DNA of 39,548 bases, from positions 1 to 39,548 of IMG/VR virus record IMGVR_UViG_3300034093_003652. One strand, 5' to 3'. Below are positions 560-39,519 of this stretch, in pieces (within the stretch, counting starts at the first letter, position 1; each line of letters begins with the position of its first letter). The notes under the pieces are model-generated. The model ran no database searches and was not told the DNA's origin. It saw only the letters and a program-made list of their open reading frames with translations. Both the position numbers and the translations under genes were made by a program. This stretch comes from a virus.

Positions 560-2047
560 ATGGAGTTACCAAAGTTACAAAAAATCGATCCAAACAAGCC
601 TAAGAAAAAGAAAATTTTATTGTTATCTGATGATTTTCGCCTCCCGTCGGGTATTGGTACAATTAGCAAAGAAATTATCTACAATACGGTTAAAGAATTT
701 GACTGGGTGCAATTGGGTGCAGCAATTAATCATCCCGATGCGGGAAAAGCATTTGATTTATCTCAAGAAGTATCAAAAGAAACGGGAGTTCATGATGTTT
801 CGGTAAAATTGATTCCGTGGAACGGATATGGCGATAGAAACATTTTATTCGCAATATTGAATCAAGAACAACCAGATGCGATTCTTCATTTTACAGATCC
901 AAGATATTGGGTTTGGTTATATCAATTAGAACATGAAATAAAAACTACGTTCCGAGTTCCAATTACGTATTATTCAATTTGGGATGATTTACCATATCCA
1001 ATGTGGAACGCTCCTTTTTACGGTAGTTGTGATATGATCATGGGCATTAGTAAGCAATCCGATAATATCCACAGAGAAGTACTTAAACAGAACGGATTTG
1101 GCGTTGTAGATTACGATAACGGAGTAGTTTCAAAAAATTTAAAATGGAATCAGGTAGTTACCGGATTCGTACCGCACGGATTAAATCATAACACGTTTAA
1201 ACCTATACCAAAAGACGATTCTGTATATCAAACAATGCATGATAAAATTAAAACTGCGAATGGAGTTGATTTTGTAGTATTTTGGAATAACAGAAACATC
1301 AGAAGAAAACAACCAGGAGATTTAATTATTGCATTCAAGCATTTTGTAGATCAACTTCCTGCAGAAAAACAAAGTAGCGTAGCATTACTAATGCATACCC
1401 AAGCAATTGACGAAAATGGAACGGATTTACGTGCGGTAGCAAAAACATTGGCACCTAATTGTAAAATATTGTTTTCGGAACAAAAATTAAATGCACAAGA
1501 TTTAAATGCAATGTACAACGTTGCTGATGTTGTAGTAAATATTGGTAGCAACGAAGGTTGGGGACTTAGTTCAACCGAAGCAATGCTAACCGGTACTCCA
1601 ATCATTAACAACGTAACTGGAGGATTGCAAGATCAATGCGGGTTTACGGATGAAAATGGCGAATGGATTCGTTTCAATGGCGAATTTTCAACTAATCATA
1701 ACGGTAAATACACAAAACATGGTAAATGGGCATATCCAGTATTTCCTAGCAACAGATCGCTTCAAGGATCGCCACAAACTCCGTATATTTTTGATGATAG
1801 AGTGCGGTTTGAAGATGTATCTAAAGCAATCATGTATTGGTATAGCATTGTTGAAGATCAACGCACCGAATATGGTTTAGCAGGTAGAGAATTTTGTTTG
1901 AATAACGGATTAACTGCAGAATCGATGGGTAATAAAATGATTGAAATGTTTAATTATTTATTCAATACCAATAAACAATCTAGAGCATTATACACCGTAA
2001 CAAAAGTAGAACAACCAAAATACGAACAAACAGGAATAGTAGCATAA
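560..2047 (+). CDS. GT-B glycosyltransferase, GT4-like
   Basis: This 495-residue protein has the layout of a retaining GT-B glycosyltransferase. The C-terminal half carries the EGWGLSSTE segment, an E-x7-E pair at residues 332 and 340, followed by AMLTGTPII and a second glycine turn. In GT4 enzymes this segment contacts the nucleotide-sugar donor. The start at 560 has AAGGA 8-12 bases upstream. The N-terminus MELPKLQKIDPNKPKKKK is an odd basic leader that echoes the LPKLKK repeats at the C-terminus of the next protein. The stop TAA shares a base with the next ATG. Donor and acceptor cannot be predicted. It is probably a cytoplasmic enzyme that opens a long glycan operon. Confidence 0.85.
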   Translation: MELPKLQKIDPNKPKKKKILLLSDDFRLPSGIGTISKEIIYNTVKEFDWVQLGAAINHPDAGKAFDLSQEVSKETGVHDVSVKLIPWNGYGDRNILFAILNQEQPDAILHFTDPRYWVWLYQLEHEIKTTFRVPITYYSIWDDLPYPMWNAPFYGSCDMIMGISKQSDNIHREVLKQNGFGVVDYDNGVVSKNLKWNQVVTGFVPHGLNHNTFKPIPKDDSVYQTMHDKIKTANGVDFVVFWNNRNIRRKQPGDLIIAFKHFVDQLPAEKQSSVALLMHTQAIDENGTDLRAVAKTLAPNCKILFSEQKLNAQDLNAMYNVADVVVNIGSNEGWGLSSTEAMLTGTPIINNVTGGLQDQCGFTDENGEWIRFNGEFSTNHNGKYTKHGKWAYPVFPSNRSLQGSPQTPYIFDDRVRFEDVSKAIMYWYSIVEDQRTEYGLAGREFCLNNGLTAESMGNKMIEMFNYLFNTNKQSRALYTVTKVEQPKYEQTGIVA

Positions 2048-3333
2048 TGAGAAAAGTAGTTATAGCGTCGCCGGTAGCGACACAATCGGGTTATGGTCAT
2101 CATGCACGTGAAATCATAACTAATATCATAGAACAACGAGGATCCGACTGGGATGTTAAATTAGTATCATTGCCGTGGGGCGGAACTCCGATGACTTATC
2201 CAATTCCTGTGGATTGGCAATTAAGAATCATTCCGTTGCCTTTACAATATCAACCAGACATATGGATTCAAATTTCAGTACCAAATGAACTTCAAGCAGT
2301 AGGTAAATACAATATTGGAGTAACGGCAGGCACTGAAGGTGATATATGTCCGGAAAAATGGATTGACAATTTAAATGCAATGCAATTAGTAATTGTACCA
2401 AGCGAATTCACTAAAAAAGCATTTGAAGATACGGCTCGACAAAAAAATAAATCGCTCACTACGAGAATTGAAGTAATTCCTGAATATTTTGACGAAACGG
2501 TATACAATAACACAAACATAACTACGGAAATTGCTGAATTAAATGATATCTCAGAATCATTTGCATTTTTAGCGGTAGGACATTGGTTGCAAGGTGTTAT
2601 TGGTGAAGACAGAAAGAATTTAAGCGGATTGATTCATTGTTTTTTCAATACATATAAAAATACAAAAAACACTCCCGCATTAATCATGAAAACGAGTGGT
2701 GCAACTTATAGCATTGTAGATCGTATGGAGATTGAAAATAAAATTGGACAAATCCGGGAGATGTTCGGTGACGCAAAACTTCCTAATGTGTATTTAATCC
2801 ATGGAGAATTAACAGATGCAGAAATGAATGCTATGTATAATCATTCTAAAATTAAAGCTATGGTATCGTTTACTAAAGCAGAAGGATTCGGAAGACCTTT
2901 ATTAGAATTTGCAACAACCGGAAAACCAATTATTGCACCACATTATTCGGGTCAGGCAGATTTCTTGAAAAAAGATTTTATTTGTGCATTATTAGGTGGA
3001 TTAACAAACATACATGATTCAGCAAAAAATGACTGGTTGATTAAGGAAGCTAAATGGTTTACTCCGGATTATGGATATGCTAGCAAAATGCTAAAAGATG
3101 TTCAAAAGAATTACAAGAAATATGTAGATTTAGCTAAACGTCAACGTTATTTTGTAAATTCTGAATTTACTAAAACTGCAATTGCATCAGTATATGAAAA
3201 AGTATTAAACATAGTAGATGGTTCATTAACATCGGTACCGCAACAAGTACAACTTCAACTTCCTAAATTGAAAAAAGCGAAAACGGAAACACCAAAAATT
3301 ACATTGCCAAAATTGAAAAAAATAGAAGCATGA
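2047..3333 (+). CDS. GT-B glycosyltransferase, GT4-like, with LPKLKK tail
   Basis: This 428-residue protein is a second GT4-like enzyme. The donor-site signature EGFGRPLLE (E-x7-E, residues 279 and 287) is followed by ATTGKPIIAP. The N-terminus VIASPVATQSGYGHHAREI fits the glycine loop of a GT-B N-domain. The C-terminus is unusual: two copies of LPKLKK at residues 405 and 420 in a lysine-rich tail, resembling the leader of the upstream enzyme. It starts in a TAATG junction and ends in an ATGA junction, so it is tightly coupled on both sides. Substrates are unknown. Confidence 0.85.
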   Translation: MRKVVIASPVATQSGYGHHAREIITNIIEQRGSDWDVKLVSLPWGGTPMTYPIPVDWQLRIIPLPLQYQPDIWIQISVPNELQAVGKYNIGVTAGTEGDICPEKWIDNLNAMQLVIVPSEFTKKAFEDTARQKNKSLTTRIEVIPEYFDETVYNNTNITTEIAELNDISESFAFLAVGHWLQGVIGEDRKNLSGLIHCFFNTYKNTKNTPALIMKTSGATYSIVDRMEIENKIGQIREMFGDAKLPNVYLIHGELTDAEMNAMYNHSKIKAMVSFTKAEGFGRPLLEFATTGKPIIAPHYSGQADFLKKDFICALLGGLTNIHDSAKNDWLIKEAKWFTPDYGYASKMLKDVQKNYKKYVDLAKRQRYFVNSEFTKTAIASVYEKVLNIVDGSLTSVPQQVQLQLPKLKKAKTETPKITLPKLKKIEA

Positions 3334-3959
3334 AAATAAGTTATGCAATTACAGTATGTAATGAGTTCATTGAAATTCAACGACTCATTACATTTCTTCT
3401 AGAACGCAAAAGACCACAAGATGAGATTGTAGTATTAGTTGATACGACAAAGGCAGTACCTGAGTTAATATCCTACCTAGCGCATTGCGAAAGACACCAT
3501 GAAGGTCATATGACAACATGGAAGGATGAATTTAAAGGTAATTTTGCAGATTGGAAAAATAAACTAACGTCATATTGCAACGGAGACTATATTTTTCAAA
3601 TTGATGCCGATGAGATGCCATGCACTCCTATTATGGAAGCATTACCGGGTATATTAAGTGCAAATGATGGCGTTGATATGATATGGGTGCCAAGAGTTAA
3701 CACGGTGCCTGATATAACCGTAGACCACATTAAAAAGTGGGGGTGGCGTGTTAATAGCGAGGGTTGGATTAATTGGCCGGATTGGCAAGGACGAATCTAT
3801 AAGAATCATCCATCAATTCAGTGGGAGAATAAGGTACACGAAAAGTTAACTGGCATTAAAACATTTGCACAGTTACCAATGGAAGAAGATTATTCTTTAT
3901 ATCATCCAAAAACAATTGAACGTCAAGTAAAACAAAACGAATATTACGATACATTATAA
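3330..3959 (+). CDS. GT-A glycosyltransferase, GT2 family
   Basis: This 209-residue protein opens with MKISYAITVCNEF, the classic first strand of family 2 enzymes. Its metal and donor-binding DxD motif is in FQIDADEMP, with D92 and D94. The downstream WPDWQGRIYKN and KVHEKLTG segments resemble the acceptor side of short GT2 proteins that extend polysaccharides. It is slightly shorter than many GT2 enzymes but has the full catalytic core. It is coupled by ATGA upstream and TAATG downstream. It probably adds one sugar of the glycan assembled by this operon. The sugar is unknown. Confidence 0.85.
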   Translation: MKISYAITVCNEFIEIQRLITFLLERKRPQDEIVVLVDTTKAVPELISYLAHCERHHEGHMTTWKDEFKGNFADWKNKLTSYCNGDYIFQIDADEMPCTPIMEALPGILSANDGVDMIWVPRVNTVPDITVDHIKKWGWRVNSEGWINWPDWQGRIYKNHPSIQWENKVHEKLTGIKTFAQLPMEEDYSLYHPKTIERQVKQNEYYDTL

Positions 3960-5395
3960 TGGCAACTTTTTGGAGAACATACAACAATAAATTATATGAT
4001 ATTGGTCAAACTGATCAACTAGGATTTTCAATATCAGATCCTTCTTATATTCCAGATGAATATTTAGAACAACAAAATTTTGTAATATTACGTACATGTT
4101 TTGGCATTGGTGATTGGGGTATTATATCAGCTATGCCTAGAAAATTAAAAGAACGTTATCCGGATTGCAAAGTTTGGATACCTTCTCCTAAATTATTAAA
4201 ATCCATGTTCGAACATTTAGAACAAAATTGGTCATCGTGGGATGATCCATTTCAAGTAGTTCATACTATATTTGATAACAATCCATGGATCGATGGTTTT
4301 ATTGATTCTTTCGAAGAGGATGTGTTTAACGATCATTATCGGATATATTCGGATAATGATGAACCATTATTAGAACAAATTTTAAGATTTTGGCAGTTTA
4401 ATGATATTAATGATATTCAGCCCGAATTGTATTTTTCTAAACAAGAACAAGAATTAGGAAATTCGATAATTAAACACCATGTCGGCAATTCGGAATTTGG
4501 TTGTTTTTTGTTATCTAATCGATATAATTACGAATCCGATAACGTTTTGATAAATGAATTAAATAAATTTGATGTTCCTTATTTTTATTGGACAAAAGAT
4601 CCTATAGAAATGACGCGTTTTAATTTTATTAATAAAGCGTTAAACATGAGAAACATTGATACTCGTATTCAATTGTATATTAAATCTAAAGCTAAAGTCA
4701 ACATAGGAAATCAAACAGGTATGACACAATTAGTAACTAGATATTCGCAAGTAATTGAATTGCAACGGCAATTTCCAATTGGCTCTAATATAATAGAAAA
4801 TGAAATTTTAATATCGGATCCTTTAAAGGTAAAATTATTAAAAAATGTTCCGGATAAATGGGAATCTAAAACTACTACATCTTTAAAATTTAAATCAGAA
4901 TTAATAGATTTCTTTAATAAATCTGAATATAAAAATTTAACCGCATTGGAAGTAGGGTCGTCTACGGGGTATACTACAAGAATATTAAGTAATTTATTTA
5001 ATCGAGTTACTGCAGTTGACGTATTACCCGATCGACATGAATATTCAAGAAACAACGTAAATTTTGAAAATTCAAATATTACTTATGTAATAGCAGATGT
5101 ATACAACGAAAAATGGATGTTTGGACATCATGATATCGTATTAATCGATTGCATTCATACATATCAACATGTTAAACAAGATATACTTAATGCAATTGAA
5201 CTTTGTAATAAACCAATATTGGTGTTTGATGACTACGGCTTATTTCCAGATATTAAACAAGCTATTGATGAATTTATTGATAATGGCACTTTTGAAGTAC
5301 TTCAATATATAGGTCATGCTTTAGGAACGATTATTCCTAAAACGCAAAATAAAATTTTAAAACATTATGAAGGTATAATATGTCAAGTAAAATAG
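3959..5395 (+). CDS. Fusion: GT9-like glycosyltransferase domain plus SAM methyltransferase
   Basis: The 478-residue protein has two parts. Residues about 1-290 look GT-B like: LRTCFGIGDWGIISAMPRKL resembles the first loop of heptosyltransferase-type (GT9) enzymes, and KVNIGNQTGMTQLV resembles their GxxTGxxHLA donor segment. Residues about 300-450 are a class I methyltransferase: motif I LEVGSSTGYTTRIL from residue 330, an acidic post-I strand ending AVDVLP, then VLIDCIHTYQHVKQD and ILVFDDYG. The second half resembles the class I fold used for sugar O-methylation. A single chain could transfer a sugar and methylate it. The GT half is the less certain assignment. It overlaps the next gene by 16 bases. 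Confidence 0.7.
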   Translation: MATFWRTYNNKLYDIGQTDQLGFSISDPSYIPDEYLEQQNFVILRTCFGIGDWGIISAMPRKLKERYPDCKVWIPSPKLLKSMFEHLEQNWSSWDDPFQVVHTIFDNNPWIDGFIDSFEEDVFNDHYRIYSDNDEPLLEQILRFWQFNDINDIQPELYFSKQEQELGNSIIKHHVGNSEFGCFLLSNRYNYESDNVLINELNKFDVPYFYWTKDPIEMTRFNFINKALNMRNIDTRIQLYIKSKAKVNIGNQTGMTQLVTRYSQVIELQRQFPIGSNIIENEILISDPLKVKLLKNVPDKWESKTTTSLKFKSELIDFFNKSEYKNLTALEVGSSTGYTTRILSNLFNRVTAVDVLPDRHEYSRNNVNFENSNITYVIADVYNEKWMFGHHDIVLIDCIHTYQHVKQDILNAIELCNKPILVFDDYGLFPDIKQAIDEFIDNGTFEVLQYIGHALGTIIPKTQNKILKHYEGIICQVK

Positions 5396-6102
5396 CAATA
5401 TATACATCCATATTTGGAGGATACGATAATTTAATTGAACATGAAATTAAATTTCCTGGCATTGATTTTATTTGTTTTTCAGATCGACAATTTGAATCAA
5501 AAACATGGAACGTAATACAATATCCTAAAATTTATTCGGATTCAAATAGAAATGCAAAAAAATTTAAAATACTTCCGCATCGATATTTAAAAGAATATGA
5601 TTATAGTATATGGATTGACGGAAATATGATAGTTAAAGAAAATCCAATTGAATTAATAAATTTATATTTATCTGATTCAAATGTAGCATTTTTTAGTCAT
5701 GCTAATAATGTATTAGATTCAAGAAATTGTATATATCAAGAAGCTCAATATATTTTAGATATAGGTCATAAAAATTATCAACAACGTCCGGATAGAGGAA
5801 ATCTTTGTTATAAAGATAATCCTGCTTTAATTACGAAACAAATGGAAAACTATATACATGCTGGATATCCTTCAAATAATGGATTAATAACTGGAATGGT
5901 TATTGCGAGACGTCACAACGAAACAGACTGTATACAAGCTATGGAAGATTGGTGGACGGAGATTTGCTACAATTCTAAACGAGATCAATTAAGTTTTAAT
6001 TATTGTGCATGGAAAAATAATTTAAAATTTAATTACATACCAGGAGATTCTCGAGACAATATCTTTTTTAAGAATTTAGGAAAACATATAGGAAAACAAT
6101 AA
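5380..6102 (+). CDS. DUF616/TOD1-like glycosyltransferase
   Basis: This 240-residue protein has the features I associate with the DUF616 group of putative glycosyltransferases. These are an N-terminal IAIYTSIFGGYDNLIEH strand-loop, a DFICFSDR segment, a conserved FKILPHRYL block and an acidic YSIWIDGNM that acts as the DxD-like metal site. It then has the long QEAQYILDIGH helix. Related proteins in plants and bacteria are linked to polysaccharide synthesis. The start lies inside the previous gene, with AAGG shortly upstream. Specificity is unknown. The family call is fairly firm, but the chemistry is inferred from it. Confidence 0.7.
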   Translation: MSSKIAIYTSIFGGYDNLIEHEIKFPGIDFICFSDRQFESKTWNVIQYPKIYSDSNRNAKKFKILPHRYLKEYDYSIWIDGNMIVKENPIELINLYLSDSNVAFFSHANNVLDSRNCIYQEAQYILDIGHKNYQQRPDRGNLCYKDNPALITKQMENYIHAGYPSNNGLITGMVIARRHNETDCIQAMEDWWTEICYNSKRDQLSFNYCAWKNNLKFNYIPGDSRDNIFFKNLGKHIGKQ

Positions 6103-6112
6103 TAAAAATAAT

Positions 6113-6823
6113 ATGATACAAATAGAACAATTAATTAAAACATATCATGAAGATGATATGGGCGGACATGATGTTAATATATTACATATGTCTGAAATAC
6201 ACACGAATTTCGTTCAGCCTGATTTGAACAAATTTACGTATAATCCAAATGATGATAACGATCAATCTGAATGGTATACAAAACAAAATTTTAATTACGA
6301 TAATGCTAGAAAGGAAGAACATAGATTACGTAAATTTAGAATTTTTCATACGTATATGAAAAAGTATAATTGCAAATCTGTTTTAGACGTAGGGTTCGGT
6401 AGCGGATATTATACTTGGAATTCTGCTATTAATGGATATGATACATTAGGAGCTGACTTTGAAAATGGTGCATATTATACTATGAAAAATATGTTAGAGA
6501 CTAGTAATATTAAAAATTTAAGATTGTATAGTTTAAATTCAAATAGTATAGATAATTTAAATGAAACATTCGATGCAGTACTATCTATAGAAGTATTAGA
6601 ACATATTTTAGATCCTATGCCTTTACATGAAAGTCAAATTAAATTATGTAATAAGGTATTTTTTCTTGAAGAGTATTGTGGAGATCGTACAGTCACGGGA
6701 CATATCGCACCCGAAGCAGCAAAAAAGCAAATTGTTGAAATGTGTTATGATTATGGTTTTGTAGAAGTACCGATGACATATGGATATCCTCCTCAAATAT
6801 TTATTAAAAAAGAATTACTGTAA
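6113..6823 (+). CDS. Class I SAM-dependent methyltransferase
   Basis: This 236-residue protein has a central Rossmann methyltransferase core. Motif I is VLDVGFGSGYYTW, with D and three glycines for AdoMet. It is followed by an acidic strand end (TLGADFEN) and a motif IV-like FDAVLSIEVLEHI, typical of the Methyltransf_11/23 groups. An N-terminal region of about 80 residues has no clear family. It sits between two glycosyltransferase genes, so a sugar or glycolipid substrate is likely but not shown. Its stop shares a base with the next start (TAATG). Confidence 0.8.
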   Translation: MIQIEQLIKTYHEDDMGGHDVNILHMSEIHTNFVQPDLNKFTYNPNDDNDQSEWYTKQNFNYDNARKEEHRLRKFRIFHTYMKKYNCKSVLDVGFGSGYYTWNSAINGYDTLGADFENGAYYTMKNMLETSNIKNLRLYSLNSNSIDNLNETFDAVLSIEVLEHILDPMPLHESQIKLCNKVFFLEEYCGDRTVTGHIAPEAAKKQIVEMCYDYGFVEVPMTYGYPPQIFIKKELL

Positions 6824-7629
6824 TGAAAAATATAGTTTTTATACCTTTTATTAAACGAGAAGATTCATTTACAACAAGATCTGGTATAGGTAAAGCGGGT
6901 CGTACTGACGGATATGAATATGGAATTGATTCATGGAAACAATGGTGTAAAAAACACGATTGCGAATTAGTTATAATGGATCAACTACTTATGCCAGAAT
7001 CTGAAATGTTAATAACTTGGCAACGTTGGTGTGTATTAGATATATTAGAACATAATGAAATTGAATATGACCAAGTTTTAGTAGTAGATGCCGATTCAAT
7101 TGTACACCCAGATTGTCCTAATTTTTTCGAATTAACTGATAATAAATTTTCAAGTCCGTTAACGGATGGAGATTATGAATGGGTATGTCGCGCCATTAAT
7201 GGATATTCTAAAATGTTTTTTAATAAAGAATATTGTTTGCCATCATATGAATTTTTTATGACTGGTTTCGTAATCGTTAATAAAACACATAAAGAATTTT
7301 TATCCAAAGTAACAAATTGGTATTTAGAAAATAAAGATGCGGTTAAACAATCATATGATATTTTATTAACTGGTAGTGATATTGCTTTAATGAATTGTTT
7401 ACGTAAAGAATTTGATATCGAATTAAATATACTTCCTAGAGAATACGGAGTAATGGATTTACATCGTAAAAATTTATTGTATGTATCGAACCAATGTTGG
7501 TGGAAAGACGATTTAACTAATTTATACAATTCCGGATGGGTATATCAATTTAATGCAATACCACAAAACGAACTAGGAAGAACTAGAGCATATTTTATGC
7601 AACGTATATACAATGATTTATATAAATAA
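6823..7629 (+). CDS. GT-A fold glycosyltransferase-like protein
   Basis: This 268-residue protein shows a GT-A pattern. A long N-terminal region ends in YDQVLVVDADSIVHPDCPNF, where D89-x-D91 is the likely metal and nucleotide-sugar site, as in GT8-like enzymes. A later block, FFMTGFVIVNKTHKEFL, fits the acceptor-side strand that commonly reads NxGv in that group. GSDIALMNCLRKE resembles the distal acidic helix. It closes the first transcription block of the island: the gap after it holds a strong promoter match. Substrate unknown. Confidence 0.7.
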   Translation: MKNIVFIPFIKREDSFTTRSGIGKAGRTDGYEYGIDSWKQWCKKHDCELVIMDQLLMPESEMLITWQRWCVLDILEHNEIEYDQVLVVDADSIVHPDCPNFFELTDNKFSSPLTDGDYEWVCRAINGYSKMFFNKEYCLPSYEFFMTGFVIVNKTHKEFLSKVTNWYLENKDAVKQSYDILLTGSDIALMNCLRKEFDIELNILPREYGVMDLHRKNLLYVSNQCWWKDDLTNLYNSGWVYQFNAIPQNELGRTRAYFMQRIYNDLYK

Positions 7630-7630
7630 T

Positions 7631-7659
7631 TTGGTTAACTGTAAAAAAATGATTATATT
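7631..7659 (+). promoter_or_regulatory. Promoter: TTGGTT-N17-TATATT
   Basis: TTGGTT at 7631-7636, 17 bases, then TATATT at 7654-7659. It fills the 36-base gap between two glycan genes. Six other sites in the window have the same layout with exactly 17 bases between elements. The hexamer ends 6 bases before ATG 7666, so the transcript should start at or very near the initiation codon. TTG and TANNTT also fit the -33 and -7 elements of Bacteroidota promoters. Confidence 0.65.
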
Positions 7660-7665
7660 CATAAT

Positions 7666-8844
7666 ATGAAAAAAAATAAAATAGAATTTTTAAATTTAGG
7701 CAAACAGCCAATAGCTAATAAATTTATTGAAAAAACAGATATTGATAATGAGTTTTTCTACAATTTATCAGTTGGCTTTGATAATGAAACCAATTTAATA
7801 ACTCATATGGAATATGTAGATCCGCCATTAATGTTTAACGAAACTTATGCATACAGAGGGTCTATGTCTAAAACAATGCAAACACATTTTAAAAATTTTA
7901 GTAAAATGTTAAATTTAGACTCAAATAGTAAAGTATTAGAAATTGGAAGTAATGATGGAGTTTTTTTAAAAAATTGGAATCCGTTAACAACATTTGCAGT
8001 TGAACCATGTAGTAATTTTGCAAAAGAAACAAATGACATGGGATACAAAACATATTCAGAATTCTGGACTACTAACTTAGCTAATCGTATTAAATCGGAA
8101 CATGGTACCATGGATTTAATTTTTGCGGCTAATTGTATATGTCATATTCCGGATTTAGATGAAACGTTTAAAGCGGTACATACTTTATTATCCGATACAG
8201 GCTTGTTTATTTTTGAAGACCCATCGTTAGCTCAAATGATAAACACTAATTCATATGATCAGATATATGACGAACATCCTCATATTTTTTCAGTAATAGC
8301 ATTACGTAATTTACTATCAAGAAATGGTTTAACAATTGTTAAAGTAGATAATATACCCGTACATGGCGGTTCTAATCGTATATACGTAATGAAATCTGAA
8401 TTTGCAAATGTAGATTCTAGTGTAGAAAATAATATTCAATTTGAATTAATGTTAGGGTTAGATAAGTTAGAAACGTTTCAAAATTTCGCAAACAGGGTAG
8501 CTCAATCAAAAACAGATTTAATTGAATTGTTAACTAGATGTAAACGATTAGGTAAAAAAATTATTAGTTATGGAGCAACTTCAAAATCTACTACCGTATT
8601 TAATTATTGCGAAATCGATACATCATTAATTGATTATGTAATTGATACTACTCCAGAAAAAATAAGAAAATTAACTCCCGGATCGCATATTCCAATTAAA
8701 AATTCAAACGGAATTGATTCCGATGTTGATGTAGTATATTTAGGTGCATGGAATTTTGCAACAGAAATTATGAATAAAGAATCAGAATTCATCGAACGCG
8801 GTGGTAAATTCATTACACACGTTCCAATAGTAAAATTTATATAA
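7666..8844 (+). CDS. Sugar C-methyltransferase (TylC3-like), zinc cysteines missing
   Basis: This 392-residue protein follows the layout of NDP-hexose C-methyltransferases. An N-terminal LGKQPIANKF block is followed by an AdoMet core with LEIGSNDGVFL, IFAANCICHIPD and IFEDPSL. The C-terminal domain holds ISYGATSKSTTVFNY and DTTPEKIRKLTPG. Family members usually begin with a cysteine-rich zinc-binding domain. Here there is no cysteine at all in the first 100 residues, so that site is lost while the domain remnant is kept. These enzymes methylate a ring carbon of 4-keto sugars, which fits the nucleotide-sugar genes just downstream. Confidence 0.8.
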   Translation: MKKNKIEFLNLGKQPIANKFIEKTDIDNEFFYNLSVGFDNETNLITHMEYVDPPLMFNETYAYRGSMSKTMQTHFKNFSKMLNLDSNSKVLEIGSNDGVFLKNWNPLTTFAVEPCSNFAKETNDMGYKTYSEFWTTNLANRIKSEHGTMDLIFAANCICHIPDLDETFKAVHTLLSDTGLFIFEDPSLAQMINTNSYDQIYDEHPHIFSVIALRNLLSRNGLTIVKVDNIPVHGGSNRIYVMKSEFANVDSSVENNIQFELMLGLDKLETFQNFANRVAQSKTDLIELLTRCKRLGKKIISYGATSKSTTVFNYCEIDTSLIDYVIDTTPEKIRKLTPGSHIPIKNSNGIDSDVDVVYLGAWNFATEIMNKESEFIERGGKFITHVPIVKFI

Positions 8845-8854
8845 TATAGAATAT

Positions 8855-9238
8855 ATGACATTTCATGAAGATGACAGAGCGCAACGATTTCTGGATGTTT
8901 TTAACAACATTGACGGGCAGATTAACGTGTCATATGTTAATTCTATAGAACATATAGTAGCGTGGCATAAACATAAAATACAAACAGATTATTGGATTTG
9001 TTTAAAAGGATCGTTTAAGGTTGGATTAGCATATGAAGATGGCACAGTTAAATGGGAATATCTGTCAGATAAAAATCCAAGAGTATTAGAAATTACACCA
9101 GGTATTTATCATGGATATAAAGCATTAGAACCAGGATCGATTTTATTATATTATTTAACAAAAAAATATAATCCCGATGACGAAATGCGCGCTGCGGTCG
9201 GTGCATTCAATGAAAGTTGGGATACTATAAATAAATAA
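8855..9238 (+). CDS. RmlC-like cupin (dTDP-4-keto-sugar epimerase-like)
   Basis: This 127-residue single-domain cupin resembles dTDP-4-dehydrorhamnose 3,5-epimerase. Features are an AWHKHK block (H38, H40) at the position of the RGLH active-site segment, ICLKGSFKVGLAYEDG, ITPGIYHGYKAL matching the usual P-x-G-x-x-HG turn, and LYYLTKKYNPDDE near the end. It is much shorter than the usual 175-185 residues, so it may be a minimal or altered epimerase. Ten bases separate it from the C-methyltransferase. In that context it probably epimerises the methylated 4-keto sugar, but another cupin reaction is possible. Confidence 0.7.
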   Translation: MTFHEDDRAQRFLDVFNNIDGQINVSYVNSIEHIVAWHKHKIQTDYWICLKGSFKVGLAYEDGTVKWEYLSDKNPRVLEITPGIYHGYKALEPGSILLYYLTKKYNPDDEMRAAVGAFNESWDTINK

Positions 9239-9241
9239 CTT

Positions 9242-9655
9242 ATGGTTACATTAAATAACGTTTTAACATTTAGGCTGCGACAATACGTCGAACAGAATGG
9301 TAATTTATTGCCGATAGAATTCGATAAGACTATTCCATTTAAACCTAAACGTACTTTTTTTGTATGTAATGTCCCTGATCAACAAATACGTGGTTGTCAT
9401 GCACATTATAAAACAAAACAATTAATAATATGTCTTAACGGTGAAATAACAGTTAAATTACATGATGGTAATAATGCACGATCATATGTATTAACAAGTG
9501 GCGATGCTATTTACATACCAAATTTAATTTGGGACGAACAGATGTATCATTCAGTAGATACCGTGTTAGTATCGTTATGTAGTACACACTACGATACGGA
9601 TGATTATATTCATAATTTCGACGAGTTTGTAAAATTAAAAAAAAATAAAAAATGA
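9242..9655 (+). CDS. FdtA/QdtA-like sugar 3,4-ketoisomerase cupin
   Basis: This 137-residue cupin matches the FdtA/QdtA/WxcM C-domain family. It has RGCHAHYKTKQLIICLNG with H53 and H55 at the active site, KLHDGNNARSYVL, an IPNLIWDEQ block and a C-terminal THYDTDDYIHNFDEF. These enzymes convert dTDP-4-keto-6-deoxyglucose to the 3-keto sugar, which is then aminated by a DegT-type transaminase. That transaminase is encoded 1.4 kb downstream. Four bases separate it from the RmlC-like gene. It points to a 3-amino-3,6-dideoxyhexose such as Fuc3N or Qui3N. I leave the symbol blank because FdtA and QdtA cannot be told apart by eye. Confidence 0.8.
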   Translation: MVTLNNVLTFRLRQYVEQNGNLLPIEFDKTIPFKPKRTFFVCNVPDQQIRGCHAHYKTKQLIICLNGEITVKLHDGNNARSYVLTSGDAIYIPNLIWDEQMYHSVDTVLVSLCSTHYDTDDYIHNFDEFVKLKKNKK

Positions 9656-9671
9656 ATTTTTTAGAAGAATT

Positions 9672-10313
9672 ATGAATAAATGTAAAATACCGCATCTATC
9701 AATAGATAATTTTATTCCATCAAATGCATTAGTACGAGCAGCTGCTAATAGTTTCCATCACGGTATGGATTGGGTTAAGTATGATGCTAGTGATAATCAA
9801 ATACAATATTGTTCTAAGCTCGGCAGAGAAAACTTACCACTGGCTGCAGCACTTTGTTTGGATTACATAGCAACTAATTTTGACCCTAATACAGCTTTTA
9901 ACGGTCTGACAACAAATGCATTTCCAGACTTAACACATTATGGGGGAGGAATGATGATAACTCCTAATTCAAATAATGAGGGTGGATTCTTAGGAATGCA
10001 TATAGATGCAGAAGTCCATGGACTGCATAACGATTGGAAACGAGAATATAGTGCTATACTTTGTTTATCTGAAGAATTTGACGAATCTTTTGATCTTAGA
10101 CTACATGATGGCGTAAACCATACTCGAGTACCTTATAAGTTTAATACATTAAATATTTTTAAGTGTAGTGAATATTCATGGCACGGATTTCCAGAAATAA
10201 CAAACGGCATGGATCGTAAAACGTTAGGAGTTATGTTTTGGTCTAAAATGACTGATGAAGATAAAAAGAGAGAGAAGATAAAAGCTAGATTTAATAATAA
10301 TTTACAGTTTTAG
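9672..10313 (+). CDS. 2-oxoglutarate/Fe(II)-dependent oxygenase
   Basis: This 213-residue protein has the facial triad and co-substrate residues of 2OG-Fe(II) oxygenases. HID at residues 110-112 is the HxD, H171 in SWHGFPE is the distal histidine, and R182 in MDRKTLGVMFW would bind 2-oxoglutarate. The beta-strand spacing matches prolyl-4-hydroxylase-type jelly rolls. It sits in the middle of sugar genes, so hydroxylation or oxidation of a sugar or of a glycosylated protein side chain is likely. The substrate is not readable. Phages often carry such enzymes. Confidence 0.8.
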   Translation: MNKCKIPHLSIDNFIPSNALVRAAANSFHHGMDWVKYDASDNQIQYCSKLGRENLPLAAALCLDYIATNFDPNTAFNGLTTNAFPDLTHYGGGMMITPNSNNEGGFLGMHIDAEVHGLHNDWKREYSAILCLSEEFDESFDLRLHDGVNHTRVPYKFNTLNIFKCSEYSWHGFPEITNGMDRKTLGVMFWSKMTDEDKKREKIKARFNNNLQF

Positions 10314-10323
10314 TATTACTACA

Positions 10324-11031
10324 ATGAAAATTCTTATCTCAGGTGGCGACGGTAAGTTTGCAAAAGAATTGCAAATTCAGAATTCGAATTTTGAATTAAT
10401 TTTATTGTCTAAAACCAAAATGGATATTACTAATTTATCATCGATAAATAATGCTATTGATAAGTATAAGCCTGATGTCTTTATTCATACAGCTGCATTA
10501 TCTCGTCCAATGATAGTACATGATACGAATCCAGATAAAAGTATTCAGTTAAATATCATAGGTACTTCTAATTGTGTATTAGCATGCATGCAGCATAACA
10601 TTAAAATAGTATACATCTCTACCGATTTTATTTATCCTGGGATTAATGGAAATTACAAAGAAACTGATCCGATATATCCCGTCAATAAGTATGCTTGGTC
10701 AAAGTTAGGCGGAGAATGTTCTTGTATGTTGTATGAAAATTCTTTAATATTACGTATAGCAATGTTTGTTAAACCATTTCCGCACGATAAAGCATTTGTA
10801 GATAGTTTTAAAAGTCCTTTATGGAATGATGAAGCTGCAAAAATACTACTAAGATTAATTGAATTAAATGCTACCGGAATTTATAATATCGGAGGAGAAA
10901 AAAAATCAATATATGATTTTGTAATACGAGAAAATTTCAATATATTAAAAGAAAATAAAGCTAATATCAAAGAAAACGTGCCAACAGATGTTAGTATGAA
11001 TCTTACTAAATTAAATGATATTTTGTTATGA
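10324..11031 (+). CDS. RmlD-like NAD(P)-dependent sugar reductase/epimerase
   Basis: This 235-residue short-chain dehydrogenase has a dinucleotide-binding turn SGGDGKFAKEL at the N-terminus. It has the YxxxK catalytic pair Y123 and K127 in KYAWSKLGGE, preceded by the strand VYISTDFIYPG. The sequence resembles dTDP-4-dehydrorhamnose reductases (RmlD) but is shorter than the usual 280-300 residues, mainly in the C-terminal substrate domain. It overlaps the next gene by ATGA. It is likely to reduce or epimerise the 4-keto sugar made by the neighbouring cupins. Confidence 0.8.
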   Translation: MKILISGGDGKFAKELQIQNSNFELILLSKTKMDITNLSSINNAIDKYKPDVFIHTAALSRPMIVHDTNPDKSIQLNIIGTSNCVLACMQHNIKIVYISTDFIYPGINGNYKETDPIYPVNKYAWSKLGGECSCMLYENSLILRIAMFVKPFPHDKAFVDSFKSPLWNDEAAKILLRLIELNATGIYNIGGEKKSIYDFVIRENFNILKENKANIKENVPTDVSMNLTKLNDILL

Positions 11032-11951
11032 TACAATTATTTAACATTCCAAATTATACAATCGATACTTCGAAGTTTTCGCATTATTTGCATGGCACTA
11101 ATGTAACAGATTTTGAACAACGTTTTGCAGAATATGTAGGTGCAAAATATGCAGTTAGCGTTAATAGTGCAACAAATGCTATTTTTTTAATGTTTTTAAA
11201 CAAAAACTTAACTATTAATGTTCCGTCAATGATTCCTCCGGTTGTACTAAATGCGTTAATTACATCTGGAAATAAAATTAATTTTATAGACGATACTGAG
11301 TGGATTGGCGGATCGTATACATTGCATAAATTTGAAGATTATAAAATTATTGATTCTGCGCAACGAGTAGATGCAAATCAGTTTAAAATAGAAGCTAATG
11401 AAAATGATTTAATGTTTTTTAGTTTTTATCCTACAAAACCAGTAGGCAGTACGGATGGTGGTATTATAGTTAGTAACGATAAACAAAAAATCGATTATTT
11501 ACGAATGTTATCATTTAACGGAATGTCGTTTGCTGAAAACAATTGGGATAGGAAAATATGTATGCCTGGTTATAAGTTTTATATGAATAGTATTCAAGCA
11601 TATATTGCAAATGAAAATTTATCTAAATTAGAACATAAAAAACAACGATTATTTGAAGTACGACATATTTATAATAAAGAATTAGGTTATAATAATACAA
11701 GCGAACATTTGTATAGAATTAATGTTAAAGATCGCGATGAGTTTATAAAACATATGAAATCCGTCGGTATATTATGTGGTATTCATTACGAATCGCAACA
11801 TTGCAATGATGTTTATACTAAATCTGTAAAATTTATTTGTCCAAATTCTGAATTAGAATCATTAACTACCGTCAGTATTCCATTTCACGAATCTTTAACT
11901 AAAAACGAAGTAATCCACATTATTAAAAATATTAAGTATGCGACTATGTGA
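11028..11951 (+). CDS. DegT/DnrJ/EryC1/StrS-family aminotransferase
   Basis: This 307-residue protein matches the PLP-dependent sugar aminotransferases. The N-terminus has GTNVTDFEQRFAEYVGAKYA and VNSATNAI, then IIDSAQR at the PLP-ring position, and FFSFYPTKPVGSTDGGI with K137 as the expected Schiff-base lysine. A late MCMPGYKFYMNSIQA-like block fits the GyNyRm segment. It is shorter than the usual 370-400 residues, with loss in the C-terminal small domain. Together with the FdtA-like isomerase it should make a 3-amino sugar. It overlaps both neighbours. Confidence 0.85.
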   Translation: MIQLFNIPNYTIDTSKFSHYLHGTNVTDFEQRFAEYVGAKYAVSVNSATNAIFLMFLNKNLTINVPSMIPPVVLNALITSGNKINFIDDTEWIGGSYTLHKFEDYKIIDSAQRVDANQFKIEANENDLMFFSFYPTKPVGSTDGGIIVSNDKQKIDYLRMLSFNGMSFAENNWDRKICMPGYKFYMNSIQAYIANENLSKLEHKKQRLFEVRHIYNKELGYNNTSEHLYRINVKDRDEFIKHMKSVGILCGIHYESQHCNDVYTKSVKFICPNSELESLTTVSIPFHESLTKNEVIHIIKNIKYATM

Positions 11952-12468
11952 ACAACATAAATATCAAGAAAATGAACGATGTATTCATGAATTTGTAAAA
12001 ACACATCAACCTAAAACAATTGTTGAATTAGGCTACGGCTCTGGTGCATTAACGGTTGCTATGAGTTATGCTTGTAGAGAATACAATGGTTTGATTTTTT
12101 CTTATGATATGATATCTCCAAATTTAGCTATTTCTAGATTAACGGAACGAAATTTATATGATTTATGTACTATAACTCAAGGAAACGTTTACAAAACGTA
12201 TTTAGTTGACCCAATACCATTTGATATGATATTGATAGATATTGATAATACATGGGAACTGATATTTGATGTTGTTATTAACAATGAATTTATCAATAAA
12301 CAAATTAAACAAGGTTCTAAAGTGATTATCGAAGGCGGTGCTGATTTACATCCTCGAATAAATAAAACTACATTGAAACATTTTCATAATACAATTGGAA
12401 AAGACGTATTCGAATTTACACACATATCAGGCCCTCGAACTAGTTTATCTATTTTAAATTTATTATGA
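11938..12468 (+). CDS. Class I SAM-dependent methyltransferase, short
   Basis: This 176-residue protein has motif I IVELGYGSGALTVA and a later FDMILIDIDNTWELI that resembles the D-x-D/N post-III segment of CmcI- or FkbM-like methyltransferases. KVIIEGGAD follows as the next strand. The start ATG lies 14 bases inside the aminotransferase gene, and the stop overlaps the next start. It is probably an O- or N-methyltransferase for the amino sugar or for another glycan residue. The exact substrate is unknown. Confidence 0.7.
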   Translation: MRLCEQHKYQENERCIHEFVKTHQPKTIVELGYGSGALTVAMSYACREYNGLIFSYDMISPNLAISRLTERNLYDLCTITQGNVYKTYLVDPIPFDMILIDIDNTWELIFDVVINNEFINKQIKQGSKVIIEGGADLHPRINKTTLKHFHNTIGKDVFEFTHISGPRTSLSILNLL

Positions 12469-13331
12469 AAAAATTAGCAGTTATAGCCTCCGGCTGGCAT
12501 TATGCATATCAATTTTATGAAGGCATCGCTTCGCAGAGTATTCCAGCTGATTTACATGTTGATTTATTTGTTATTAGTCATAGAAAACCTGATGATTTTA
12601 ATACGATAAATGAAAAAGAATACATCAGACAGTATAACGGCGATAATTTACTTTATAAATTAGATAAAGAGTTGTATAAAAAAGTTATTACGAAACAAGA
12701 TTTATCTAATATGGGTTGGAAATATCTCGAAAAGCCTAATACTATCGGAGATATGGAAGTTTTTAACCAATGGTCAGAAGATTATGATTTTAAAGATTAC
12801 GATATATTTCTTATCACGCACGATGATAATTTAATTTTATCTGACCAACTGTTCGTTGATATTTTTAGTAATGAAATTAAATTATTTAAACCTATATACG
12901 AATCTAGATATGGATCTACGGGACATCAATTTAAAACCCATATGGTACAAAATGAATTGGATTGGATGTTTTTAGATAATGGATATTCCGAATATATTCC
13001 TAAAGCATATACTCCACGTGGTTCTTTTAGTTTTTATACAAAAGAACTTATAAATTTATTACCAGAACATAAATTTCCAATGGATAATATATCATTAACT
13101 AGAGTCGGGTTAACTAATTCGGGTGAATACAAAGATTTAACCGAATGGAATACAAATGCTGGAAATTTTAGAAATTTTTTATATAAAGATTCGTTAGTAG
13201 AAAAAACTCGATGGTTATCGGAAACTAAACGAGTTAGTAAATATTGTATCGAAGGCGAACGAGGATTCATTCATAATAACAATAGCAATGAATTTCATTA
13301 TGAAAACGCCGTTAAAAACATTATATCATGA
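12465..13331 (+). CDS. Glycosyltransferase-like protein, family unclear
   Basis: This 288-residue protein has no motif I can place with certainty. It opens with KKLAVIASGWHYAYQFYEGI, and has YDIFLITHDDNLILSD near residue 115, where HDD could be a DxD-like metal site on a GT-A strand. PRGSFSFYTKELINLLP and NTNAGNFRNFLY come later. Proteins of this kind are common in phage and bacterial glycan clusters. It overlaps both neighbours by four bases, so it belongs to the same transcription unit. A glycosyltransferase role is inferred mostly from context. Confidence 0.5.
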   Translation: MKKLAVIASGWHYAYQFYEGIASQSIPADLHVDLFVISHRKPDDFNTINEKEYIRQYNGDNLLYKLDKELYKKVITKQDLSNMGWKYLEKPNTIGDMEVFNQWSEDYDFKDYDIFLITHDDNLILSDQLFVDIFSNEIKLFKPIYESRYGSTGHQFKTHMVQNELDWMFLDNGYSEYIPKAYTPRGSFSFYTKELINLLPEHKFPMDNISLTRVGLTNSGEYKDLTEWNTNAGNFRNFLYKDSLVEKTRWLSETKRVSKYCIEGERGFIHNNNSNEFHYENAVKNIIS

Positions 13332-23253: not shown

Positions 23254-23655
23254 ATGTTTGAACAAATTGTACATAGTATTAATTGCTATGGCAAAACAAA
23301 ATTAGCTCCGTCGCTTGTATGTGACGGAGTTGGTGTTTTCGCAATAACAGAAATCGATTCCAATTATGTACTATTTGATGATGTTGAGCCGGATACCATC
23401 CATATTCCGTATGAAATGATTACAGATATATCAGTACGAAAACATTTAACATCTACATGTAATTCAGATGAATTTGGAATTTGGCTTTCTAGAACATATA
23501 ATAATATTAATATGTCTTACTATATAAATCATTCAGACACGCCTAACGTATATCACGATTTAAAACAAGATAAATATGTTACAATACGTAGTATATTGCC
23601 AGGCGAAGAATTAACTTGTACTTATACTAAAGAGGAGATCGATTGGCTTACTTAA
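23254..23655 (+). CDS. SET-domain protein
   Basis: This 133-residue protein carries a compact SET methyltransferase domain. GVGVFAITEI is the opening strand, YYINHSDTPNVYHD contains the N-H-S-x-x-P-N pseudoknot motif (N92-N98), and TIRSILPGEELTCTY ends in Y124, the usual catalytic tyrosine. SET enzymes methylate lysine side chains on proteins with AdoMet. They are rare in phages, and the target here is unknown. A hairpin-forming inverted repeat (CTCCGTC/GACGGAG) lies within the gene at 23306-23329. It overlaps the next gene by 13 bases. Confidence 0.8.
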   Translation: MFEQIVHSINCYGKTKLAPSLVCDGVGVFAITEIDSNYVLFDDVEPDTIHIPYEMITDISVRKHLTSTCNSDEFGIWLSRTYNNINMSYYINHSDTPNVYHDLKQDKYVTIRSILPGEELTCTYTKEEIDWLT

Positions 23656-24281
23656 ACGCAAACATACCGACAATAACTTGTTACATACGAAACGAGTTTT
23701 TATTTAATCATGAAAAAGGCCATGGCGATTTTACTGCAGCCGATGTGCATTCAGTGGCTTCTATTCAGAAACGATCGCCATTGTTTGAAGCATTTCTAGA
23801 AAATGGGGTAAATTGGACAAGACGTCCTATACATGCATTTGCTTGGAAGAAAGATGCTGAACGATTACCATTAACAGAACATGTATATTGGGATTGTTTT
23901 TCATCATATATTGATGTACAAGTTCGAGAAAGAATGGCAGGATTACGGGCTGATTTAATTTCTATAACAGGAGTTAAACGACAAGGAGTATACATGTTTA
24001 CATTGGATTGGTCACATGAAAATCGAAATGTACTGGATACTAATTTTTCAGAAACACCAGAACATAAGTGTGGACATGTATTCAAAATGGATAATGGTAA
24101 TTATTTTATTTATCCTAACAATCGTATTATATGGATGGATAATGCATGGACATATAATAGAATAGAAAAAAATCCAGGTTATCAAATTGATATGACAGTT
24201 TATTCGGTTGAAGGTAAAGCTGGATATGAAACGGATTATTCATATATGACTGAGTTTAACAAAGATAAATCTACTAAGTAA
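23643..24281 (+). CDS. Conserved-looking phage protein, TTG start
   Basis: This 212-residue protein begins with TTG at 23643, within the end of the SET gene. The choice is supported by a strong AGAGGAG at 23630-23637 and by the lack of an in-frame ATG until much later. Features include FLFNHEKGHGDFTAAD, RPIHAFAWKKDAERLPL, an aromatic-rich HVFKMDNGNYFIYPNNRIIWMD and an acidic C-terminus. I do not recognise the family. The PNNRIIWMDNAW type of motif recalls uncharacterised proteins of large myoviruses. Confidence 0.5.
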   Translation: MAYLNANIPTITCYIRNEFLFNHEKGHGDFTAADVHSVASIQKRSPLFEAFLENGVNWTRRPIHAFAWKKDAERLPLTEHVYWDCFSSYIDVQVRERMAGLRADLISITGVKRQGVYMFTLDWSHENRNVLDTNFSETPEHKCGHVFKMDNGNYFIYPNNRIIWMDNAWTYNRIEKNPGYQIDMTVYSVEGKAGYETDYSYMTEFNKDKSTK

Positions 24282-33384: not shown

Positions 33385-35030
<1,646 letters not shown>

Positions 35031-35031
<1 letters not shown>

Positions 35032-37153: not shown

Positions 37154-37393
37154 ATGAAAAAACTAGTATTAGTATTAGCAGTATTAGCACTAACAAGTTG
37201 TGTTAATCAAATAGATCGTTTAAACGACGCTCAGAAGAAGTATCCAAAATGCATAGTGCAACCGACAACTAGTTTGTTAACACGAGATGGGTATGAAGTT
37301 ATGGTAGAAGATACTATCAACAATCAAATCTACGTACTAGATTACTATGCATTTAGTTCAACTAGGATCTGGGATATTAGAAACATCAAGTAA
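37154..37393 (+). CDS. Small lipoprotein
   Basis: This 79-residue protein has a lipobox: MKKLVLVLAVLALTSC with the lipid-anchored C16. The mature part is short and polar, with KKYPKCIVQPTTSLL, an ending in YYAFSSTRIWDI and no clear fold. Lipoprotein signals direct export by Sec and lipid anchoring in the envelope. In phages, such proteins can block superinfection or coat the cell. That role is only a possibility here. It shares a base with the thioesterase start. Confidence 0.6.
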   Translation: MKKLVLVLAVLALTSCVNQIDRLNDAQKKYPKCIVQPTTSLLTRDGYEVMVEDTINNQIYVLDYYAFSSTRIWDIRNIK

Positions 37394-37794
37394 TGGAATT
37401 TTTAAACTCACATCCAATCAAGAAAAGTGATCTAGGCTTTCACGGCAATCTCTTTGGAGGTAAACTCTTAGCATGGATCGATGCATCAGCTGCTAGCTAC
37501 GCAATGCAATTGTGTGATACGCCCCGTATGGTTACGGTTTCAATTGATCAATGTAACTTTGAAAAACCAGCACGCGAAGGTCAATTGGTTAAAATATATG
37601 GACGTCCACAAGCAATAGGCAATTCTTCTATCAACTTGTACATGGAAGCACGTGCGCACAATGTATACACTGGCAATCAGGTTGTTGTACTCAAGACTCA
37701 TATTAAATTCGTACACATTGATGAAGAAGGACATCCTATTCCGTTAGGGGAAAAGGCTCGTAATCGAGTTGTTAAACTAGTAGAATCTAAATAA
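37393..37794 (+). CDS. Hotdog-fold acyl-CoA thioesterase (YciA-like)
   Basis: This 133-residue protein begins MEFLNSHPIKKSDLGFHGNL and has FGGKLLAWIDASAASYA, the typical hotdog active-site helix. VTVSIDQCNFEKPAREGQLV, GNSSINLYMEA and VVLKTHIKFVHID follow. This matches acyl-CoA hydrolases of the YciA/BFIT type, which cleave acyl-CoA to free CoA and fatty acid. Such a gene is rare in phages. It could remodel host lipid metabolism. TAATG-coupled to the lipoprotein gene. Confidence 0.8.
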   Translation: MEFLNSHPIKKSDLGFHGNLFGGKLLAWIDASAASYAMQLCDTPRMVTVSIDQCNFEKPAREGQLVKIYGRPQAIGNSSINLYMEARAHNVYTGNQVVVLKTHIKFVHIDEEGHPIPLGEKARNRVVKLVESK

Positions 37795-37809: not shown

Positions 37810-38391
37810 ATGAAACGGTTATTACTATACATGATGTTGTTATGTGGCACTGCATATTCTCAATGCAATGGAACGCAATCATTCACACTCACACCACCTC
37901 CAGTAGGCAATCAATATCTTCCAGGACAAACGGTAACGATGTGTTATACCATGAACGGATACACTCAAGCAGGAACGAATTGGGTTGAAGGATTTGATTT
38001 AACTTTAGGACCGGGTTGGTCAAATGTACAACCAGCAACGCCTCCTGCTAATTGTGGAGGTAACACATCGGGAGGACAATGGATATGGACGTTGGCTGCA
38101 AATACTCCGGTAGGACTTGTAGGTCCAGGTTACTTCTTTGACTTAGACTTAGACGGCCAATCCGGAGATGATTTTGGAGACTCCGGATCGTGCACATGGA
38201 CCTTTTGTGTAACGCTTACAGTAGCACAAGGATGTACTCCACAAAGCTTAGCAATTGCCGTAACTCCCGGGTCAGATGGACTATGGGGAAGTTGGGGCAG
38301 TACAAGTTGCGATGCAGCAACACCATTTACAGTATTTAACGGAACTATTAACCCACAGCTACCTGGTATAGGAGCTATATCACACAATTAA
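37810..38391 (+). CDS. Secreted beta-rich protein, signal peptide
   Basis: This 193-residue protein has a signal peptide, MKRLLLYMMLLCGTAYSQ, with cleavage after SQ. The mature part is beta-rich, with conserved-looking cysteines (CNGTQSF, TMCYTM, PANCGG, SCTWTFCVTLT, GCTPQ, TSCDA) and aspartates (FFDLDLDGQSGDDFGDSG) that suggest a calcium-bound, cohesin- or Ig-like adhesion domain. It ends in ISHN. No sorting domain is present on this chain. The next two genes look like further modules of one surface system. Confidence 0.65.
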   Translation: MKRLLLYMMLLCGTAYSQCNGTQSFTLTPPPVGNQYLPGQTVTMCYTMNGYTQAGTNWVEGFDLTLGPGWSNVQPATPPANCGGNTSGGQWIWTLAANTPVGLVGPGYFFDLDLDGQSGDDFGDSGSCTWTFCVTLTVAQGCTPQSLAIAVTPGSDGLWGSWGSTSCDAATPFTVFNGTINPQLPGIGAISHN

Positions 38392-38393
38392 TG
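38377..38393 (+). repeat. 17-base gene-junction repeat, copy 1
   Basis: ATATCACACAATTAATG spans the end of the first secreted gene. It encodes ISHN then stop. A near-identical copy (one mismatch) is at 38945-38961. Confidence 0.6.
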
Positions 38394-38395
38394 TT

Positions 38396-38959
38396 ATGAA
38401 AAAACTATTATTATCATTGAGCCTATTGGCAAGTACAAGTGCGTATACGCAGTTAACAACAATTAATCCGGATACAGTTTGCTATCAAACTCCTGGATCT
38501 ATTTATTCAGTAACCAACACTCCGGGTAATACTTATACATGGACCGTAGCCGCTCCAGGAGTAATTACATCGGGACAAGGAACAAACCAGATTGGAGTCA
38601 ATTGGTCTGCAGCAGCTCCAGGCCTAATACCAAATGCTGTAAGTGTAGTAGCATCAAATGGTTCGGGTTGTAATTCGCCAGCATCAAACCTCAACGTATT
38701 CATTTTACAAATTGTTCCTAGCATCACAGCATTAGGTCCATTTTGTAGCACGGATGCGTGTGTAGCAGTAACAACCTCACCTGCAGGCGGTGTATTAACT
38801 GGAACGGGTGTTGTAGGTAATACATTTTGTCCACAAACTGCAGGAGCAGGAACATGGCCTTTAACATATACAGTAACACAAGGAGGATGTACATTCACAG
38901 CTACCACTTCAGTAACAGTTAATCCAACTCCAACCTTATCACCGATATCACACAACTAA
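38396..38959 (+). CDS. Secreted PKD-like domain protein
   Basis: This 187-residue protein has a signal peptide, MKKLLLSLSLLASTSAYTQ. Two Ig/PKD-like modules follow. The first has YQTPGSIYSVTNTPGNTYTW and TSGQGTNQIGVNW. The second begins with LGPFCSTDACVAVTTSPAGG and ends NPTPTLSPISHN. These are typical of the repeat domains of large Bacteroidota adhesins that end in a gliding-motility sorting domain. Here the chain stops after the second module with no sorting domain. It starts five bases after the previous stop. Confidence 0.65.
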   Translation: MKKLLLSLSLLASTSAYTQLTTINPDTVCYQTPGSIYSVTNTPGNTYTWTVAAPGVITSGQGTNQIGVNWSAAAPGLIPNAVSVVASNGSGCNSPASNLNVFILQIVPSITALGPFCSTDACVAVTTSPAGGVLTGTGVVGNTFCPQTAGAGTWPLTYTVTQGGCTFTATTSVTVNPTPTLSPISHN

Positions 38960-38961
38960 TG
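38945..38961 (+). repeat. 17-base gene-junction repeat, copy 2
   Basis: ATATCACACAACTAATG at the end of the second secreted gene, one mismatch from copy 1 at 38377. It also covers the ATG of the third gene. Confidence 0.6.
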
Positions 38962-39519
38962 AAAACGTTATTATTCATCATGATGTCATTCAATGTTGCA
39001 GCACAACAGCTTGTAACATTATGTAACGGACAATCGCAAACATATTTTTATTCCGCCGATGCCAATTTACCAGGCGACACGGAATGGGATGTAAATGGTA
39101 TTACATACACAGGCAACCCGGTTGGATTAACTTGGAGCGATACTGGAATCTATGTTCTCACAGCTACACATTGGTCATTGGATTGTCCTAGCGAGCCAGT
39201 AACATATACCGTAACGGTTAAAGAATGTGAACAATTAATATATTACATTCCAAATTCATTTACTCCCGACGGCAACGAATACAATCAAACGTGGGGTCCG
39301 GTGTTTACCGAAGGCTTTGATCCATACGATTTTCATTTATTAGTGTTTGACCGTTGGGGAGAAACCATATGGGAATCTTGGGACGTAACAACACAATGGG
39401 ATGGATCGTACAACGGTGCACCAGTTCAAGATGGCACTTATACTTGGGTAATTTGGTTTGGCGATAAGTATACCGATGCCAGATATACCAAAAACGGACA
39501 CGTAACAATTCTTAAATAA
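38959..39519 (+). CDS. Secreted protein with T9SS type B (gliding-motility-associated) sorting domain
   Basis: This 186-residue protein has a short signal peptide, MKTLLFIMMSFNVAAQQ. An Ig/PKD-like region follows (LCNGQSQTYFYSADANLPGD, LTWSDTGIYVLTAT). Residues 95-186 are a near-textbook CHU_C domain: IPNSFTPDGNEYNQTW, FDPYDFHLLVFDRWGETIWE, QWDGSYNGAPVQDGTYTWVI, then NGHVTILK. That domain routes proteins through the T9SS and onto the surface of Bacteroidota cells. The gene starts within the previous stop codon region (TAATG). In bacteria this domain usually closes proteins of a thousand or more residues. Confidence 0.88.
   Translation: MKTLLFIMMSFNVAAQQLVTLCNGQSQTYFYSADANLPGDTEWDVNGITYTGNPVGLTWSDTGIYVLTATHWSLDCPSEPVTYTVTVKECEQLIYYIPNSFTPDGNEYNQTWGPVFTEGFDPYDFHLLVFDRWGETIWESWDVTTQWDGSYNGAPVQDGTYTWVIWFGDKYTDARYTKNGHVTILK

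Follow-up and report, generated by a model that had tools for sequence, protein, structure and literature searches.

The window analysed here is the whole 39,548-nucleotide stretch of IMG/VR virus record IMGVR_UViG_3300034093_003652, a viral fragment from a phage of Bacteroidota. It ends with three ORFs on the + strand at 37810-38391 (193 aa), 38396-38959 (187 aa) and 38959-39519 (186 aa), which are spaced by +4 and -1 nt, the last overlapping the second by 1 nt (TAATG). All three start with a signal-peptide-like stretch. In the Pfam search, PKD_6 was found in the second protein (E 1.7e-11) and CHU_C, the T9SS type B sorting domain, in the third (PF13585, E 3.1e-12, above the Pfam cut-off), whereas no match was found for the first. 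None of the three proteins matched PHROGs at E up to 1. The G+C content of the cassette is 42% against 34% for the window, and a promoter and terminator scan gave results at or below chance.

Gene 1 encodes a signal peptide, one beta-sandwich domain of unknown family and a C-terminal tag, I-S-H-N, at 38377-38388 (context GIGAISHN). Its AF2 model is of low to moderate confidence (pLDDT 58), with residues 182-193 below pLDDT 50 and the tag outside the folded domain. A fold search with this model gave only weak PDB matches (AgI/II and pilin-type beta sandwiches, Z about 8), hence no family was assigned. Gene 2 encodes a signal peptide, an N-terminal PKD_6 domain (38459-38698), a second Ig-like domain and the same I-S-H-N tag at 38945-38956 (context TLSPISHN). 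Gene 3 encodes a signal peptide, a PKD-like N-domain (39004-39234) and the CHU_C domain (39247-39510). Its AF2 model is confident (pLDDT 88) and shows two predicted beta domains, and its sequence profile matches the C-terminus of Aureispira GhpA (9flp, E 7e-10).

The surrounding window also carries baseplate-hub and thymidylate synthase matches. About 13 kb (560-13331) hold genes with glycosyltransferase, methyltransferase, nucleotide-sugar epimerase and aminotransferase matches, perhaps a sugar-modification island of the phage. A phage-encoded GroEL lies at 33415-35031 (PHROG E 8.7e-175) and a match to a PHROG family annotated as ferredoxin at 23643-24281 (E 1e-53). A 4HBT-family thioesterase gene (37393-37794) is directly upstream of the cassette, and similar genes lie near the cassette in several relatives (L003, L020, L050, L053 and L056; L numbers denote the related loci collected in this study). 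It is preceded by a small lipoprotein-like gene of 79 aa with an LTSC motif (37154-37393), which has a weak Rz-like spanin match (E 0.0012).

Conservation of the gene set

The earlier note had described three secreted genes in a row, each with its own signal peptide, with the sorting domain only on the last and spacing of -1 to +4 bases, and our analysis has confirmed this observation. A search with gene 1 retrieved 55 viral loci. Counting the window, 49 of 56 sequences hold the complete triplet in the same order; six more are incomplete, most of them cut by a contig end, and one (L056) carries a fused form. The gap between genes 1 and 2 is usually +3 to +14 nt (a single value of -41 reflects an over-long start) and that between genes 2 and 3 is -1 or 0 nt. 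Mean column identity is 81%, 72% and 61% for genes 1, 2 and 3, respectively. Searches with genes 2 and 3 and with more divergent anchors widened the set, one scan alone finding 488 relatives of the anchor. Signal peptides were judged by a hydrophobicity heuristic and not by SignalP; in 67 complete clusters the gene 1 product is signal-peptide-like in 60, gene 2 in 66 and gene 3 in 67. A frameshift or assembly error, which the note had named as one outcome that would overturn its observation, is excluded by these homologous clusters.

The shared C-terminal tag, the tips and the PKD domains

A feature absent from the earlier note is the identical C-terminal tag of genes 1 and 2 (GAISHN and SPISHN directly before the stop). 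Genes 1 and 2 are not detectably homologous, yet both end exactly in I-x-H-N in all aligned sequences. I190, H192 and N193 are invariant in the gene 1 alignment, and P183, I184, H186 and N187 in the gene 2 alignment. Over 76 tip-type (gene 1 position) and 70 gene 2-type proteins selected by the tag, the I is I or rarely V and the last residue is N or rarely D; tips almost always have G at -6 whereas gene 2 has P at -5. Codons for these residues vary synonymously, so the constraint is on the protein. A nucleotide-level reason for the tag, namely overlap with the next start, was rejected on this ground and because the gap after gene 1 varies. Among 1066 distinct ORFs of at least 100 aa in the first set of loci, 146 end in the tag; two were set apart in clustering, a likely spurious minus-strand ORF in L058 and a tip fragment in L065, and no other ORF ends in H[ND].

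An unbiased test was made with a DNA pattern for [hydrophobic]-G-P-I-x-H-N-stop, which contains no information on CHU_C or PKD and was scanned over IMG/VR. It matched 68 stretches, of which 59 lie beside acceptor or CHU_C genes, two more are secreted tips of the same system (one cut by the contig end, one a second tip of the L065 contig) and seven have no ORF of 50 aa. The tag is a nearly specific marker of this system. In contrast, the tag pattern was not enriched in 395 Bacteroidota genomes (6 hits against 7 in the control), and none of the hits is a plausible secreted gene.

Gene 1 is an exchangeable tip. At least six unrelated tips occupy this position, comprising the beta-sandwich of this window, glycine-rich ALK_LTK_GRD-like proteins, SprB-repeat proteins, PKD_4/Ig_7 proteins, WD40-like propeller-type proteins and proteins with a weak GBD_T9SS_assoc match, and all of them are tagged. 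L050 and L096 have genes 2 and 3 that are 92% and 86% identical but unrelated tips, and 23 such pairs (gene 2 above 60%, gene 3 above 50%) were found. In L065, L244 and L284 a tagged tip lies downstream of the anchor gene. One contig (L418 1399-2553 and L065) has two tagged tips (384-aa propeller-like and 455-aa) with one adaptor and one anchor, possibly alternative tips, and a strict rule that the number of tags equals the number of acceptors therefore fails. In L077, a secreted-looking gene of 819 aa (1473-3932) abuts the tip gene, but it is untagged and has no PHROG match. Many tips have 7 cysteines and part of the anchors 3 or 5; these odd numbers could allow an inter-chain disulphide.

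The N-terminal domains of genes 2 and 3 are homologous PKD-type domains (hhalign Prob 81%, E 1.3e-5; whole-length Prob 96%, E 6e-9). Such a domain starts gene 2 in 66 of 72 and gene 3 in 72 of 77 cases, and no tip (0 of 69). In L304, L301 and L373 gene 2 is about one PKD domain plus the tag, whereas in L284 there is no gene 2 and the anchor itself begins with PKD_6. This fits a chain of tip, adaptor and anchor in which each tag would meet the next N-terminal PKD domain, although some gene 2 N-domains of the T class described below match PKD models only weakly.

Besides I-x-H-[ND], two other tag classes were found, [IV]-[YF]-T-[ND] in six clusters and S-D-x-N in one. Tip and gene 2 share a class in 68 of 68 cases (61 H, 6 T and 1 S), which none of 100,000 permutations reached, without correction for relatedness. 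As the sequences are related the counts are not independent, and the T class may be a single event. The final residue, N or D, is not concordant between tip and gene 2 in 11 of 68.

Fused counterparts and related systems

Single-chain phage CHU_C adhesins of 654-1670 aa (L056, L137, L179, LR745206 and LR756502), mostly of about 650-820 aa, were also found. Nearly all of those tested contain the gene 2 and gene 3 domains end to end, and none of those tested has I-x-H-[ND] inside. In a comparison of 60 split and 30 fused gene 2 regions, the split-specific invariant residues lie mainly at the new N-terminus (T-x-N-P) and at the tag H, which is absent from all 30 fused relatives, where P is commonest. 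Gene 3 shows almost no split-specific residue, only a Q at its new N-terminus. Split and fused sets occupy the same slots in different phages, after the tail tube gene (10 split, 11 fused) and near thymidylate synthase. L056 has a fused chain with nearly the same signal peptide as gene 1 of this window, in the same gene context. However, two large records (436 kb and 152 kb) hold both a short and a long CHU_C gene at different sites, so the two forms are not strict alleles. In the first set none of 16 long CHU_C genes has a tagged neighbour. A bacterial MAG and the huge phage LR756502 have gene 1-like domains in long CHU_C proteins.

The closest known proteins are T9SS type B surface adhesins such as SprB of Flavobacterium johnsoniae and GhpA of Aureispira, which share the CHU_C domain, Ig/PKD/SprB-type modules and the Sec signal. 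Those are one very long chain, whereas here the tip, adaptor and anchor are separate proteins of about 190 aa each, with CHU_C only on the last and a tag on the first two. In 44 genomes of the order of the MAG L059, the listed CHU_C frames were nearly all long, and of the shortest, the ones looked at lie at contig ends; stand-alone short CHU_C anchors in bacteria were thus not supported. Phage-encoded T9SS cargo has been reported for Cryophage (PMC7468147) and crAss-like cluster 2 (PMC6949934), where a phage gene uses the host T9SS and the cargo varies between phage variants. Cryophage cargo has type A signals on single enzymes or PA14 proteins, and no split set or shared tag was found in these reports or in the other literature searched, so the earlier note's suggestion that the system is undescribed holds as far as that literature goes. 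Cohesin-dockerin and donor-strand systems work in a way similar to the docking proposed here, with separately secreted subunits held non-covalently on an anchored partner and with exchangeable ends; no sequence relation to them is claimed, and the docking element proposed here is a free C-terminus of 4-6 residues.

A proposed docking model and its alternatives

The explanation that we consider somewhat more likely than not is that the three genes encode one cell-surface adhesin made as three chains. In this view each chain enters the host periplasm through Sec, the tip docks by its C-terminal I-x-H-N tag on the N-terminal PKD domain of the adaptor, and the adaptor docks by the same tag on the N-terminal PKD-like domain of the anchor. 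The CHU_C domain of the anchor would then take the pre-assembled chain across the outer membrane through the host T9SS and PorP/SprF-type shuttles, which the host would probably supply, so that the complex is displayed on the infected cell. Splitting would let phages exchange the tip by gene replacement. T9SS moves folded proteins (PMC9251779), and type B CTD proteins need PorP/SprF-like shuttles and are anchored by them (PMC9143113, PMC12618676), but export of CTD-less partners through T9SS was not found to be established in these papers. No PorP/SprF gene was found in nine phage records, several of them possibly fragments, in a search whose control also gave no signal. The gene set, the tag, tip exchange, the acceptor rule, the class concordance and the fused homologues rest directly on the sequence comparisons, whereas the physical docking, its specificity, the role of the PKD domains as receptors, co-export through T9SS, surface display and the biological purpose (coating or adhesion of the infected cell, for example against superinfection) are inferred.

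The interpretation given in the earlier note is partly supported. Its view of one adhesin cut into parts is well supported by the fused single-chain relatives, sometimes at the same genomic site, and its suggestion that the first two proteins assemble on the third is supported only indirectly, by the shared tag, the acceptor rule and the class concordance. Its alternative of virion fibres built from host modules is not supported. The set directly follows the tail tube gene in 10 clusters (tail sheath and tube identity were checked in L046), which may point to a fibre or decoration of the virion. However, all three proteins carry signal-peptide-like N-termini and the last a T9SS signal, other clusters, including that of this window, lie beside thymidylate synthase or thioesterase genes, and phage tails assemble in the cytoplasm. 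The lack of a PHROG match points the same way but does not exclude a virion role, which is considered quite unlikely.

The main rival is that the tag is a sorting signal read by a host or phage factor (an unrecognised minimal T9SS or envelope signal), each protein being exported and anchored on its own with none docking on another. The strictly C-terminal position, like that of T9SS signals, its presence on unrelated proteins and the possibility that class differences mirror different hosts speak for this reading. It is nevertheless unlikely, since no bacterial protein with the tag was found in the 395 genomes, the tag replaces a linker that in fused chains runs into the next PKD domain, and it occurs with CHU_C anchors that begin with a PKD domain. 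It is also quite unlikely that the chains are independent secreted binding proteins sharing only a transcript, with the tag serving, for example, as protection from C-terminal proteases. The docking is only inferred, which leaves room for this reading, but the fused homologues, the PKD acceptor rule and the class concordance are against it. A decaying remnant of one long adhesin, like a frameshift or assembly error, might be suggested by the fused homologues at the same sites, but is all but ruled out because each chain has its own signal peptide, the first two have their tag, and the same gene order and junction recur in dozens of contigs with strong protein conservation.

A bolder reading, which has a good chance of being right though slightly less than even, is that phages of Bacteroidota have a modular multi-chain adhesin in which a free C-terminal tetrapeptide (I-x-H-N, with alternative cognate classes such as I-Y-T-N) is a plug-in docking code between subunits with N-terminal PKD domains, allowing any tagged tip to be mounted on a T9SS anchor and carried through the T9SS as a passenger. 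It would be a new assembly principle for surface proteins and a new way to export proteins without their own T9SS signal. A four-residue C-terminal code shared by unrelated secreted proteins, with cognate classes and natural tip exchange, would be a simple way to mount binding modules on the Bacteroidota cell surface. It would show that T9SS can carry non-covalent passengers and that phages remodel the surface of infected Bacteroidota with swappable adhesins.
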